Of a stretch of DNA of 39,203 bases, positions 11,157 through 21,370 are shown piece by piece (positions within the stretch are counted from its first letter, which is position 1; the number at the start of each line of letters is the position of its first letter). Source of the DNA: an uncultured Chloroflexota bacterium (GTDB lineage Bacteria > Chloroflexota > Anaerolineae > Promineifilales > Promineifilaceae). Under the pieces are notes generated by a model. It had not been told where the DNA came from. It did no database searches and saw only the letters and a program-made list of their open reading frames with translations. Where the stretch lies: the NCBI GenBank assembly GCA_900696625.1, contig CAADGU010000435.1, forward strand, positions 1 to 39,203. The letters are read 5' to 3'. A program made the translations under genes and the position numbers.

Positions 11157-11219
11157 AGTGCCAGGCACATGGCATTTCATTCTGAATAACCAAAACTGTT
11201 TTGCCCTGTGCCTGGCACT
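11157..11219. repeat. 63-bp palindromic element, diverged copy 2
   Basis: The outer arms AGTGCCAGGC and GCCTGGCACT are conserved. The inner arms changed on both sides (CACATGGCA against TGCCCTGTG), so pairing is largely kept. It ends 23 bases before the GTG start of the response regulator. Confidence 0.8.
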
Positions 11220-11242
11220 TTTCACCAAACGAGGAGCAACAA

Positions 11243-11623
11243 GTGACATTCACGATTTTGGTGGTAGATGATGAACCGGCCCTGCGTGACCTGATTGGGC
11301 AGATGTTGGAGATTGGCGGTTATGCCGTGCAAGAAGCCAGCGATGGTGAAGAAGCGCTGGACATGATTGACGAAAATCCGCCGGATGCGGTGATTCTGGA
11401 TGTGATGATGCCGGAGATGGACGGGATTACGGTATGCAAAACGCTGCGAGCCAATCCGGCAACAGCCGTGCTGCCCGTCGTCATGCTCAGCGGCAAAACA
11501 CAGCGAGAGGCGGTAGCCGAAGGGCTGGCAGCGGGGGCCAACAAGTATTTATGTAAACCAGCCTCGTTTGAAGAACTGATGAATAGTTTAGAGGAAGTGT
11601 TGGCGGTCACGGCCGTGTCCTGA
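11243..11623 (+). CDS. Receiver-only response regulator (CheY-like)
   Basis: The 126-residue protein is a lone REC domain. It has the acidic pair DDE at residues 9-11, the phospho-acceptor Asp53 in [13 protein letters not shown], the switch Ser83 in VVMLSGK and Lys105 in KYLCKPASF. There is no output domain, so it must act through a protein partner or as a phosphate shuttle. GTG 11243 is chosen because GAGGAG lies about 7 bases upstream; an earlier TTG at 11201 would translate the palindromic element. It is not adjacent to a kinase. The two kinase-like genes in the window (4725 and 17578) are possible but unproven partners. Confidence 0.9.
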
Positions 11624-17577: not shown

Positions 17578-20013
17578 GTGAATTTCTGGCCGCAGCTTAT
17601 CACCTCTTTAACTGAACCACCGGGTAACATCATCTATCACCTGGTGACGCTCTTTGCCCTGCAAGCCGTTTTTGCCATTTCCCTTAGCCAATGGCTGCGC
17701 AACCGGCAAGACAACGACGCCTGGCGGCATCTGGCAGCCGCCGGTTTTTTGATTGCCGGGCGGGTGCTGCTGCTGGCGCTGGCGCTGCTGCTGGCAGAAG
17801 ACGCCAGCCGCGCCGCAATTTATCTACCACCGTTGGAGCAGGCGTTGAATGGGGTTACGGCCGTTCTCCTGGTCTGGGCGCTCACACCACCCGCCGGCAA
17901 ACAACCCCACCTGGGTAGTGTGCTGCTGCTGCTCAGCCTGCTCATCATCGCCCTGCTGACCATCACCTTTATCATCACCTGGCAATCGCTGGCGGTTGCC
18001 GGCGCCGTCTATACCGAGACGCCGCAGGCGCTGGTCTGGTTTGGGCTGCAAGTGGCAGTTTATGGCGTCGGCCTGGCGCTGGCGCTGGCGAACCGGCGCA
18101 CCCGCTCAGGGCTATCACCATTCATCATGGCCGTGCTGCTGGCAACGGCCGTGGCCGCCCTTCTCATCACCCTGGGAATCAATCCCAACGGCGAACAACT
18201 ACTTTTCTGGCTGCGCCTGGGGTATTTGGTGGCCTTTCCTCTGTGGGCGGTGCTGGTTTATCGCCAATCGCTGGCCCCCCTGGTGGCCGCGCAGCAAGCC
18301 AACCGCCCCGCCGTGCGCCAGTTGACCGATTCGTTGGCCCTGTCTACGGCCGTGCTGCAAACAATAGACACCGAAAACCGCACCTACCAGGCCGTGACCC
18401 TCATCCAGCAAATGATAGACGCCGCTTTTGTGGGCGTGGGCATTTTCTCACCGGATAACCGGCAAATTTTGCACCTGACCAGCAACCTGCCCCAGGCCGG
18501 TACCGATGCCCCCAAAAGCTGGCAGATCGATCTGGTGGAATGGCCGCCATTCCGCACCGCCATCCGCAAAAAAGCGGGCGTGGAACTGCTGCCTGACGGC
18601 CAGGGAATGCGGCCCTTGCAGATTTTGTATGAAGCCATTCAGGTGGGGCCTTATGGGGCCATGTTGGTGGAACCACTGTTTGTGGGCGAAGAGGCCGTGG
18701 GGATGCTGCTGCTGGCCAAGCCAGACGGCCGTCTGCGGTGGAGCGCACGCGAAAAAGCGATTACCCCGGCGCTGGCTGCTTTTGTGGCTCAGGCATTGAT
18801 GAACACCTATCAGCGCCCCACCACCGCCCCACCACCACCGGCCACAAACTTACCGGTTGGGGGGGATACGGCCGTCAGTGGTCGCCTCATTGCCCTGGAA
18901 ACGGAACGTGACCGGCTGGCAGCCGAACTAGACACCACCGCCAACCGGGCCGCGCAGGCCGAAGCCCGCGCTGTGGTCGCCCTGAAACGCGCCCACGATC
19001 TGGCACAACTATTGGAAGAGATGGAGCGCGTCAGCCGCGATGAACGCATCAGCACCCTGGAACAAGAGATCGCCACCCTGCGCGAATCCCTCATTGAAGC
19101 CGAAGACGCCATGGCCCTGGCTGCGGCCAGCGAAAGCGAACTCAGCACCGAGTGGATCATGCTAACGATTACCCGTTATTCCGGCCAGCTTGAAGAAGCG
19201 CAGGCGCGCATTGCCATGCTGGAAACCACGCTGGAACAACAGGAACAAGGGACAGCCACAGAACTACTGGTAGCCCTCATCCAGGAATTACGCACCCCCA
19301 TGACTTCGATTGGCGGTTTCACCGATTTGCTATTGGGGGAAACAATGGGCATTCTGGGCACACGCCAGCGCGACTTGCTGCAGCGGATTCAGGCCAATAC
19401 CCGGCGGATGGGCAGTTTGCTAGATCAGATGTTGCAACTGTCATCCAACCGGGAAACACCGGCGCCGGCCCATGAAGAAACGTTGGATGTGCGCGAGGTG
19501 ATTGAAACGGCCGTGACCGGCATCATGTCTCAAGTACGCGATAAAAACTTGCGGCTGGACATGGAAATTCCACCATCGCTGCCCCCGTTGACCATCAAAC
19601 GCACCGATTTGCAGCAAATGTTGGCCCATTTATTAAACAATGCTTGCCAGGTGACCGGGAACAACGGCCATATCTCCATCACCGCCCAGGCCGCCGCCAT
19701 CCACCCGCCCACCCACGCCAACGAGTGGCTCCGTTTTCTGCAAGTGAACGTGTCGGACAGTGGCAGCGGCATTGACGCTGACGACCTCGGCGCCGTTTTT
19801 GTGGCCCATCACCGCGCCGATGCGCCGCTGATCAAGGGATTGGGTGATACCGGCGCGGGGCTGGCCATGGCCCACAATCTGGCCCAGGCCAATGGCGGCC
19901 GTATTTGGGTAGAAAGTACGCCCGGCGAGGGCAGCACCTTTTCACTGCTCTTTCCGCTGCCCACCCCAGACGGGGAAACGGCCGTACCTGCCAATGGTGA
20001 CGGCCGTTTGTGA
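17578..20013 (+). CDS. Membrane histidine-kinase-like protein lacking the phospho-acceptor histidine
   Basis: The 811-residue protein begins with about seven hydrophobic helices (residues 15-235). A GAF-like region (about 265-415) and a Thr/Pro linker follow, then a long coiled coil (about 440-560; LETERDRLAAELDTTANRAAQAEARAVVALKRA and onward). Next is a HisKA-like segment and a HATPase_c domain with LLNNACQV (N box), DSGSGID (G1) and GDTGAGLAMAHNLAQANGG (G2). In the HisKA motif the usual HELRTP reads QELRTP; codon CAG at 19282-19284 gives Gln569. Autophosphorylation on the normal site is therefore impossible, although the ATP-binding half looks intact. It may be a pseudokinase scaffold or may signal by another route. 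The start is GTG 17578, probably leaderless. Confidence 0.85.
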   Translation: MNFWPQLITSLTEPPGNIIYHLVTLFALQAVFAISLSQWLRNRQDNDAWRHLAAAGFLIAGRVLLLALALLLAEDASRAAIYLPPLEQALNGVTAVLLVWALTPPAGKQPHLGSVLLLLSLLIIALLTITFIITWQSLAVAGAVYTETPQALVWFGLQVAVYGVGLALALANRRTRSGLSPFIMAVLLATAVAALLITLGINPNGEQLLFWLRLGYLVAFPLWAVLVYRQSLAPLVAAQQANRPAVRQLTDSLALSTAVLQTIDTENRTYQAVTLIQQMIDAAFVGVGIFSPDNRQILHLTSNLPQAGTDAPKSWQIDLVEWPPFRTAIRKKAGVELLPDGQGMRPLQILYEAIQVGPYGAMLVEPLFVGEEAVGMLLLAKPDGRLRWSAREKAITPALAAFVAQALMNTYQRPTTAPPPPATNLPVGGDTAVSGRLIALETERDRLAAELDTTANRAAQAEARAVVALKRAHDLAQLLEEMERVSRDERISTLEQEIATLRESLIEAEDAMALAAASESELSTEWIMLTITRYSGQLEEAQARIAMLETTLEQQEQGTATELLVALIQELRTPMTSIGGFTDLLLGETMGILGTRQRDLLQRIQANTRRMGSLLDQMLQLSSNRETPAPAHEETLDVREVIETAVTGIMSQVRDKNLRLDMEIPPSLPPLTIKRTDLQQMLAHLLNNACQVTGNNGHISITAQAAAIHPPTHANEWLRFLQVNVSDSGSGIDADDLGAVFVAHHRADAPLIKGLGDTGAGLAMAHNLAQANGGRIWVESTPGEGSTFSLLFPLPTPDGETAVPANGDGRL

Positions 20014-20048: not shown

Positions 20049-20354
20049 ATGAACACTTTAATAGCTGAAATGCAGATGGTTAAGGCTACCGATGTTGTTG
20101 TCAATGATGATACCTTAACGGTTGAGTTAGCTGACGGCCGTACTGTTTCTGTTCCCCTGGCCTGGTATCCACGTTTGTGGCATGGGTCGCCAGCAGAACG
20201 CAACCAATGGGAATGGATTGGTGATGGCGAAGGTATTCATTGGCCCGATCTAGATGAAGACATCAGCGTAGAGGGGTTGATTCTCGGTCGCCGTTCCGGC
20301 GAAAGCCAGCGATCTTTGCAACGCTGGCTAGAAAGTCGAAACCAACCTGGGTAA
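20049..20354 (+). CDS. DUF2442 domain protein
   Basis: The 101-residue protein matches DUF2442: VVVNDDTLTVELADGRTVSVPLAWYPRLWHGSPAERNQW, then GIHWPDLDEDISVEGLI. The family is small, cytosolic and of unknown function; members often sit beside a DUF4160 gene, sometimes described as toxin-antitoxin-like, but none is visible here. The stop codon shares one base with the next start (TAATG at 20352-20356), so translation is probably coupled to the LysM protein. The ribosome binding site is weak (GAGAGAATGGG). Confidence 0.85.
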   Translation: MNTLIAEMQMVKATDVVVNDDTLTVELADGRTVSVPLAWYPRLWHGSPAERNQWEWIGDGEGIHWPDLDEDISVEGLILGRRSGESQRSLQRWLESRNQPG

Positions 20355-21370
20355 TGGAACTGGAAACGCAAGAATCAGGGCGGTGGCAGTGGAATTTGCT
20401 CATTACCTTTGGGGTGGTGGGAACAGTGCTGCTGGCGCTGCTGCTGGCGCAACTGGACCGTGCGCCGCAGCCAATACCACCATCCCCCCCTGTTCTCATT
20501 GCCGACGTGACCATCATCGCCCCCAGCCAAACGCCGCTGCCCGCTATCCCTCTGGTCAGCGCCACGCCGACCACCACGCCCTTTCCCACCCCCATCCCCA
20601 CCACCACATCACCACTGCCGGAGGAGTGCGGCGCTATTCCCGTGGGGTGGGTACCAACCACCGTGCGCCCCGGCGAAAACTTGATGACGTTGGCTGTCCG
20701 CTCCGGCACATCAGAAGCGGCCATTATCCGCGCCAACTGCCTGCGCCAGGAAATGCTGCTGCCGGGGTTGATCATTTACCTGCCGCCAGCGCCGCCCACG
20801 CGCCAGCCTTGCGGCCCACCGGCCTTTTGGGCGCAATATGTGGTGCAATCGGGTGATACTATGTTTTCACTAGCGCTGCGTCACGGCACCACCGTTTACG
20901 CCATCATCAACGCCAACTGCCTGAGCAGCAGTGATTTGCGGGCGGGGCAGGTAATCTTTTTACCACCGCTGCGCATCACGGCCACGCCGCTGCCGCCTTC
21001 CCCGGAAATACCCTCGGCTACCCCCTGGCCGCCCACCAGCACACCGTTCCCGCCCACGAACACGCCGGTTCCGCCTACCGATACGCCGGCGCCACCGACA
21101 ACCACGCCATCGGCAACGGCTACCGCTACGGCCACCAATACAGCGACGGCCGTACCCCCCACCATCACCCCCAGCCAGACACCACTGCCGCCAACACCGA
21201 CAGAGACGGCAACGGCCGTGCCCCCTACCGACACGCCCACCTCACTACCGCCGACAGACACACCACTACCACCAACGGACACGCCGGTTCCCCCCACCGA
21301 CACCCCCATACCCCCAACAGACACGCCCGTTCCGCCTACCGATACACCAGCCCCGTCCCCAACTCCTTAG
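20354..21370 (+). CDS. Membrane-anchored LysM protein with PPTDTPx tail repeats
   Basis: The 338-residue protein has a short cytoplasmic N terminus, one transmembrane helix at about 14-33 and a Thr/Pro linker. It carries two LysM-type domains at about 100-145 (TTVRPGENLMTLAVRSGTS...LPGLIIYLPP) and 161-205 (YVVQSGDTMFSLALRHGTT...LRAGQVIFLPP). Each holds an unusual shared ANCL cysteine motif, and a further Cys lies near the start of each domain, so disulfides are possible. LysM domains bind peptidoglycan or related glycans. The C-terminal third is low complexity and ends with six tandem heptapeptides PPTDTPx, encoded by a 21-base repeat. It overlaps the DUF2442 stop codon by one base. Confidence 0.87.
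   Translation: MELETQESGRWQWNLLITFGVVGTVLLALLLAQLDRAPQPIPPSPPVLIADVTIIAPSQTPLPAIPLVSATPTTTPFPTPIPTTTSPLPEECGAIPVGWVPTTVRPGENLMTLAVRSGTSEAAIIRANCLRQEMLLPGLIIYLPPAPPTRQPCGPPAFWAQYVVQSGDTMFSLALRHGTTVYAIINANCLSSSDLRAGQVIFLPPLRITATPLPPSPEIPSATPWPPTSTPFPPTNTPVPPTDTPAPPTTTPSATATATATNTATAVPPTITPSQTPLPPTPTETATAVPPTDTPTSLPPTDTPLPPTDTPVPPTDTPIPPTDTPVPPTDTPAPSPTP
21225..21360 (+). repeat. 21-base tandem repeat encoding PPTDTPx
   Basis: Six consecutive units encode Pro-Pro-Thr-Asp-Thr-Pro plus one variable residue (one unit is extended by two residues). The units differ at synonymous positions, so this is not a very recent expansion. Confidence 0.8.

Follow-up and report, generated by a model that had tools for sequence, protein, structure and literature searches.

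What can a histidine kinase still do once the histidine that accepts the phosphate has been replaced and its core has otherwise been kept? The question is raised by a gene in a 39,203-nucleotide stretch of DNA from an uncultured Chloroflexota bacterium (the whole stretch is called the window here, and the features described in it all lie on its forward strand). The gene, at 17578..20013, starts with GTG and, according to the open reading frame list and its translation, encodes a pseudo-histidine kinase of 811 residues with the domain order 7TM-GAF-coiled coil-HisKA-HATPase. A first-pass annotation made from the sequence alone had read Gln in place of the phospho-acceptor His (QELRTP, residue 569, codon CAG at 19282..19284), and translation of the reading frame, alignment and codon comparison bear this out, with Gln569 flanked by ...VALIQELRTPMTSIGGF....

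The same annotation had described seven membrane helices and a long coiled coil, and both appear in an AlphaFold2 model computed from a 66-row alignment (mean pLDDT 85, pTM 0.55). The model places seven long helices at the N-terminus (residues 16-241, 17623..18300), in agreement with the alignment of this head region, which had no Pfam match in the window protein or its relatives and hence has no known family name from Pfam. A GAF-like domain follows (residues 265-411, 18370..18810); it adopts a GAF fold in the model, its Pfam GAF matches are weak and below the cut-off in the window protein, those of the relatives L067 and L221 score above it, and a Foldseek search with the head model returned GAF domains, the top 50 matches listed being essentially of GAF type. 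A long helical coiled coil (residues 433-556, 18874..19245), with the conserved stretch LRESLIEAEEAMALAAA...YSGQLEEAQARI, then leads to the DHp hairpin (residues 559-623, 19252..19446) and to the CA domain (residues 638-793, 19489..19956). Both are seen in the model and in Pfam matches above the curated cut-offs (HisKA, residues 567-625, E 2.9e-11; HATPase_c, residues 675-795, E 4e-18). The window protein had no Pfam match to a PAS domain, and 7TM-GAF precedes the core instead. A fold search with the full-length model gave ordinary histidine kinases as its best matches, DivL and RetS among them. Thus, of the features of a HisKA-type kinase, the HisKA and HATPase_c domains and the N, G1 and G2 boxes are present and the H-box His is absent.

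The replacement holds over long distances. When 98 relatives were searched, 58 genomes matched at E <= 1e-40, and Gln occupies the site in 6/6 genomes of the genus. In a 51-row alignment, 45 rows belong to the window's own family: 29 with Gln, 7 with another residue (Ser, Arg, Glu), 6 without the DHp and 3 without the kinase core, so that His, which in close homologues would have pointed to a recent mutation or an error, occurs in 0/45. As background, His was found in 46 of the 47 other kinase matches considered in the same genome (the best 47 of 89; the sole exception has Arg) and in 30/30 loci of a kinase family from the same class that served as a control (the best 30 matches). The 7TM-GAF head is present in 186/396 genomes drawn from the class, true-kinase paralogues included (head profile, E <= 1e-20), and in a phylum sample of 301 genomes 33 match the head profile at 1e-15, 29 of which belong to the class or lie nearer; outside the class, the full head was found in one genome (G426) and in three others the match is confined to the GAF part. 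The head also occurs in another class of the phylum at L332 (2-5410, reverse strand), in an open frame of 1803 residues that reaches the end of the stretch and reads SHQLYGP, with His at the site.

We read 196 distinct head-bearing open reading frames, 186 of them with a kinase core, and in these 186 the site holds Gln in 131, His in 21, Asn in 12, Glu in 8, Arg in 5, and Lys, Asp and Ser in one each, and is deleted in 6; these counts are of sequences, many from metagenome assemblies, and not of independent events. Outside the 186 stand L154 (Gln, SQRLRTP, no head found), L049 (Arg, a contig fragment) and seven late loci (Gln in two, Ser in one, a DHp that did not align in two, no core match in one, and one His from another class). 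From the core-less count we dropped L085|1 and L095|3, large proteins judged to have been caught through their GAF domain (single-digit head scores), as well as L222|2633, L249 and L266, which stop at, or close to, the end of a contig or stretch. A species-genome scan contributed 40 head-carrying loci (L058-L097), 36 with Gln by a simple pattern and the remaining four with Gln by profile alignment, a sample that is biased, since the DNA patterns of the scan were drawn from Gln proteins and two of them lie at or near the surroundings of the site.

Codon use and substitution rates point the same way. The Gln codon is CAG in 88 and CAA in 43 of the 131 Gln members, and CAG in four and CAA in two of the six genus members. 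In six pairs from the genus, dN/dS was 0.02-0.05 for the DHp, 0.07-0.12 for the CA domain, 0.05-0.14 for the GAF domain, 0.04-0.11 for the coiled coil and 0.13-0.25 for the membrane part, the DHp value being the lowest or joint lowest of six segments in 6/6 pairs. Judged from these sequences, Gln at the acceptor site is under purifying selection throughout most of the class, and the protein is in kind a pseudo-histidine kinase, with conserved loss of the acceptor, a histidine kinase core otherwise kept, and purifying selection.

Is the ATP site kept as well? The N, G1 and G2 boxes had been described as preserved, and the window protein indeed has N688 (19639..19641), the G1 box D727-S-G-S-G731 (19756..19770) and the G2 region G756-DTGAGL762 (19843..19863), with G759 and G761. 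Among the 131 Gln members, the N-box Asn and the D, G and G of the G1 box are each found in 130, the remaining sequence being truncated where its contig or stretch ends, while G759 is found in 126 and G761 in 122. Scoring six residues together (N688, D727, G729, G731, G759, G761), we found all six in 119 Gln members, five in 10 and four in one, and one sequence is cut off. The site is complete in 11/12 Asn members, in 18/21 His members (two of the other three are cut off) and in 9/16 members with Glu, Arg, Lys, Asp or Ser, and G761 is absent from 6/6 DHp-deleted members. Gln and Asn therefore accompany an intact ATP site, and the other replacements often accompany decay. The earlier suggestion of a pseudokinase, made from a conserved His loss beside a preserved ATPase fold, is thus supported by the long-range fixation of Gln and by the constraint on the ATP-binding residues.

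The residues around the site are also informative. The position of E570 holds Glu in 121 and Asp in 10 Gln members (Glu in the window protein), and that of T573 (H+4), Thr in the window protein, holds Thr in 79 and Gln in 49, with single cases of Ala, Arg and Ser. The Thr to Gln change, giving QELRQP, falls mostly in one clade (L062-L081 and kin). Across the DHp, the alignment columns of the Gln group show no other conserved His, and S577 is the sole nearly invariant hydroxyl residue near the site. Eight DHp positions, which we take from HK853 to face the response regulator, had a mean entropy of 0.51 bits in sampled Gln members, where CA residues 640-700 had 1.71, and of 0.38 against 1.15 bits (CA) in a His-bearing control family of the same class, this comparison resting on a single control family whose members are closer to one another (mean pairwise identity 0.675 versus 0.486). 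Measured against the CA domain of the same family, the face is conserved to the same degree whether or not the His is present, suggesting that it still receives a docking partner. A precedent also exists for an ATP site retained in the absence of the acceptor, because an archaeal kinase lacking the H-box binds and hydrolyses ATP and has no autokinase activity (as excerpted from PMC11784639).

When was the histidine lost? In a core-only tree that excludes the site's own column and is rooted on 21 outgroup kinases, His-bearing SHELRTP paralogues lie at the base and are followed by one clade that includes the window protein (SH-aLRT 100, nested His rows included, in a rerun minus two long branches); this and the other quick trees use a simple model and have many unsupported branches. 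Gln lies deep inside this clade, within which two nested lineages again have His, L157 with its kin and L052a with its kin. A constraint that separates the non-His rows from these nested His rows cost 71.8 log units (p-AU 0.0475, a borderline rejection). On the simplest reading, Gln would have replaced His once and His would have returned twice, and repeated losses may have occurred instead. The nested His lineages are presumably kinases, so that the non-catalytic state would not be universal in the clade. Within one family we thus find His, Gln, Asn, apparently regained His, a decayed ATP site, a deleted DHp and a deleted core. One genus (L040-L045) lacks the whole DHp and has the CA domain still joined to the 7TM-GAF head, and in L327 and L328, from another family, the DHp no longer aligns.

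The gene neighbourhood suggests a link between the head and the cell envelope. Downstream of the pseudokinase gene lie a small DUF2442 protein (20049..20354; Pfam PF10387, E 8.2e-22) and a LysM protein (20354..21370; Pfam LysM, E 5.6e-20), whose start overlaps the DUF2442 stop by one base and which has an N-terminal hydrophobic helix, two LysM and a Pro/Thr-rich tail. Among 75 loci, a few of which represent the same record twice, a single cluster of 61 proteins adjoins the pseudokinase gene, at position +1 in 55, and it consists of LysM proteins (Pfam LysM in 6/6 neighbours checked, the window's included). With a profile built from this cluster, and with the count limited to members that have a match or a flank of 1.5 kb or more, LysM lies directly downstream in 105/116 Gln members, in 8/10 Asn, 6/6 Glu, 4/4 Arg, 1/1 Ser, 0/1 Lys and 0/1 Asp members, in 6/6 DHp-deleted members and in 8/16 His members, the eight His members without it all being SHELRTP paralogues; the genomes are drafts, and a few matches may be loose since the profile contains Pro/Thr-rich tails. 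LysM also adjoins 4/5 core-less members that are not cut short by the end of a contig. Its retention beside DHp-deleted and core-less members indicates that the pairing of head and LysM outlives the kinase core. A second cluster of 26 proteins lies at +2 in 22 cases, with an LCP (LytR-CpsA-Psr) domain in 2/2 checked. In L052, L221 and L283 the order is a true kinase A, then the pseudokinase-family copy B, then LysM, and in L222 A is followed by B, after which the contig ends; A is a 7TM-GAF-PAS-HisKA protein with His (domains checked in L221). Among the 75 loci we found no conserved response regulator next to the pseudokinase gene. A stand-alone receiver-domain response regulator lies about 6 kb upstream in the window (11201-11623; Pfam Response_reg, E 1.2e-32), and as a conserved partner it was rejected, its cluster mates occurring at the same place only in close kin. 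The window also encodes, at 387-2642, a 7TM-HD phosphodiesterase-type receptor (7TMR-HDED, 7TM-7TMR_HD and HD domains).

Taken together, a Gln mostly kept class-wide, an intact ATP pocket and a cell-wall-binding neighbour make it probable that the protein signals by a change of shape or by steering a partner. We hypothesise, giving this reading somewhat better than even credence, that it is an ancient, conserved, envelope-linked transmembrane pseudo-histidine kinase that acts as a non-catalytic modulator in the manner of DivL or RocA. The 7TM and LysM side would read the state of the envelope, the GAF domain would read a cytosolic ligand, and the coiled coil would relay both inputs to the DHp-CA core; the conformation of the core, for which bound ATP may be responsible, would decide the docking of a response regulator or of an active partner kinase. 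In this way the pseudokinase would steer the phosphorylation of its partner without carrying phosphate itself. ATP binding by the core is predicted from sequence, contact between LysM and the pseudokinase is suggested by genomic neighbourhood, and a positive function as an allosteric scaffold is what we infer. It counts against a modulator that no response regulator is conserved beside the gene, that His has returned in the two nested lineages, and that the DHp or the core has been deleted in some lineages; these deletions, together with the often incomplete ATP site beside Glu, Arg, Lys, Asp or Ser, imply that the core is dispensable there.

Other explanations could be considered. That the gene is decaying, or that the Gln is a recent mutation or a sequencing error, we regard as refuted for this gene and ruled out: some far relatives do decay, yet Gln is common to the genus and to most of the class, the codon itself has changed synonymously, and the DHp has the low dN/dS given above. 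An active kinase that uses another acceptor residue would fit the preserved ATP site and E570, but it is very improbable given that the DHp columns of the Gln group offer no other conserved His and only S577 as a nearly invariant hydroxyl nearby. We also think it unlikely that the protein is one half of a split kinase, whose CA domain would bind ATP and phosphorylate the His of a partner kinase in trans within a heterodimer. The intact ATP site of 119/131 Gln members and the His-bearing paralogue that shares the head and immediately precedes the gene in L052, L221, L283 and L222 would suit such a pair; most loci, however, have no such paralogue nearby, and the B copy itself has His in L052 and L283 and is degenerate in L221 (ARKLHPP).

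About as improbable is a kinase locked in phosphatase mode, which would dephosphorylate a response regulator through Thr573 and phosphorylate it no longer. The window protein keeps both E570 and T573, Thr stands at H+4 in 79/131 Gln members, and a HisKA kinase without its His can retain phosphatase activity, as CrdS H371A does, with a regulator half-life of 2.6 min (excerpts of PMC3510030). Nevertheless, the excerpts from the same source report that the N375Q change at H+4 abolished the phosphatase activity of CrdS, and that the equivalent of E570 serves kinase and not phosphatase activity; the retention of this residue in the Gln members (Glu or Asp throughout) likewise counts against a phosphatase. 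A general phosphatase role is therefore unlikely, because 52/131 Gln members have neither Thr nor Asn at H+4, which CrdS needs (PMC3510030, excerpts). Furthermore, DivL has, as excerpted from PMC4211667, neither kinase nor phosphatase activity, although DivL-like proteins keep E-x-x-T (YELRTP). For the window protein itself such a role is possible; for the family at large it would hardly be general.

Returning to the non-catalytic modulator, a more specific version of it is tentative and, in our judgement, rather doubtful: that the core turned once, deep in the class, into an ATP-gated, phosphate-free conformational switch coupling the LysM-tethered wall to two-component signalling, with Gln, and in a side branch Asn, kept as a locked substitute for His, and that two lineages regained His. 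If this were true, the natural reversions would be a test of how a pseudokinase becomes a kinase again.

Few bacterial pseudo-histidine kinases are well studied, and DivL and RocA are the main natural cases that we found; the literature, as extracts, returned nothing relevant on this family in Chloroflexota, and for pseudo-histidine kinases in general it returned DivL, RocA and ChrS and no Gln family. In Caulobacter DivL, as in the window family, the acceptor His is replaced across orthologues (there by Tyr), the kinase boxes are otherwise kept and a conserved patch lies at the regulator-docking face; DivL modulates with Tyr at the site, and alphaproteobacteria without its partner DivK are often without the DHp-CA (PMC4211667, excerpts). 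The motif search also retrieved Sphingomonas YELRTP (DivL-like) proteins, and the DivL structure 4q20 was among the sequence and fold matches. On the other hand, DivL belongs to another phylum, carries several PAS domains instead of 7TM-GAF and has Tyr instead of Gln; it works with CckA and DivK, and to our knowledge it has no LysM link. DivL binds an ATP analogue weakly, and the window family has a conserved ATP signature from which binding is predicted. The kinase region of RetS is a close sequence and fold match as well; RetS is a kinase that controls another kinase, GacS, and has a different sensor part and added receivers.

RocA of group A Streptococcus is, like the window protein, a pseudokinase with several transmembrane helices, six predicted against seven; it modulates the partner kinase CovS, is proposed to act through its membrane regions, and in a CA-less form complements when overexpressed (excerpts of PMC7028121). 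It differs in keeping a His (H246) that is not needed, where the window protein has Gln569, in having lost several CA residues, where the boxes of the window protein are intact, and in that the excerpted text reports neither a GAF domain nor a LysM link, where the window protein has a GAF domain and a LysM neighbour (PMC7028121). Nearer at hand, paralogue A (L221:275-2683 and kin) shares the 7TM-GAF head and is the adjacent gene in some genomes, but has an added PAS, keeps His (SHELRTP) and branches off before the pseudo-clade in the core tree. For ChrS, a pseudokinase form obtained by laboratory evolution works through the paralogue HrrS (PMC9491836, excerpts).

The pseudokinase family is old and widespread in the class, and points to an unstudied envelope-linked system in Chloroflexota. 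Since every stage from His to a deleted core occurs in one family, the role of the kinase fold without phosphotransfer becomes directly testable. The genome of the window carries a second His-less kinase, L318 (G000:C55:570-1235), which reads SRELRTP, with Arg at the site.
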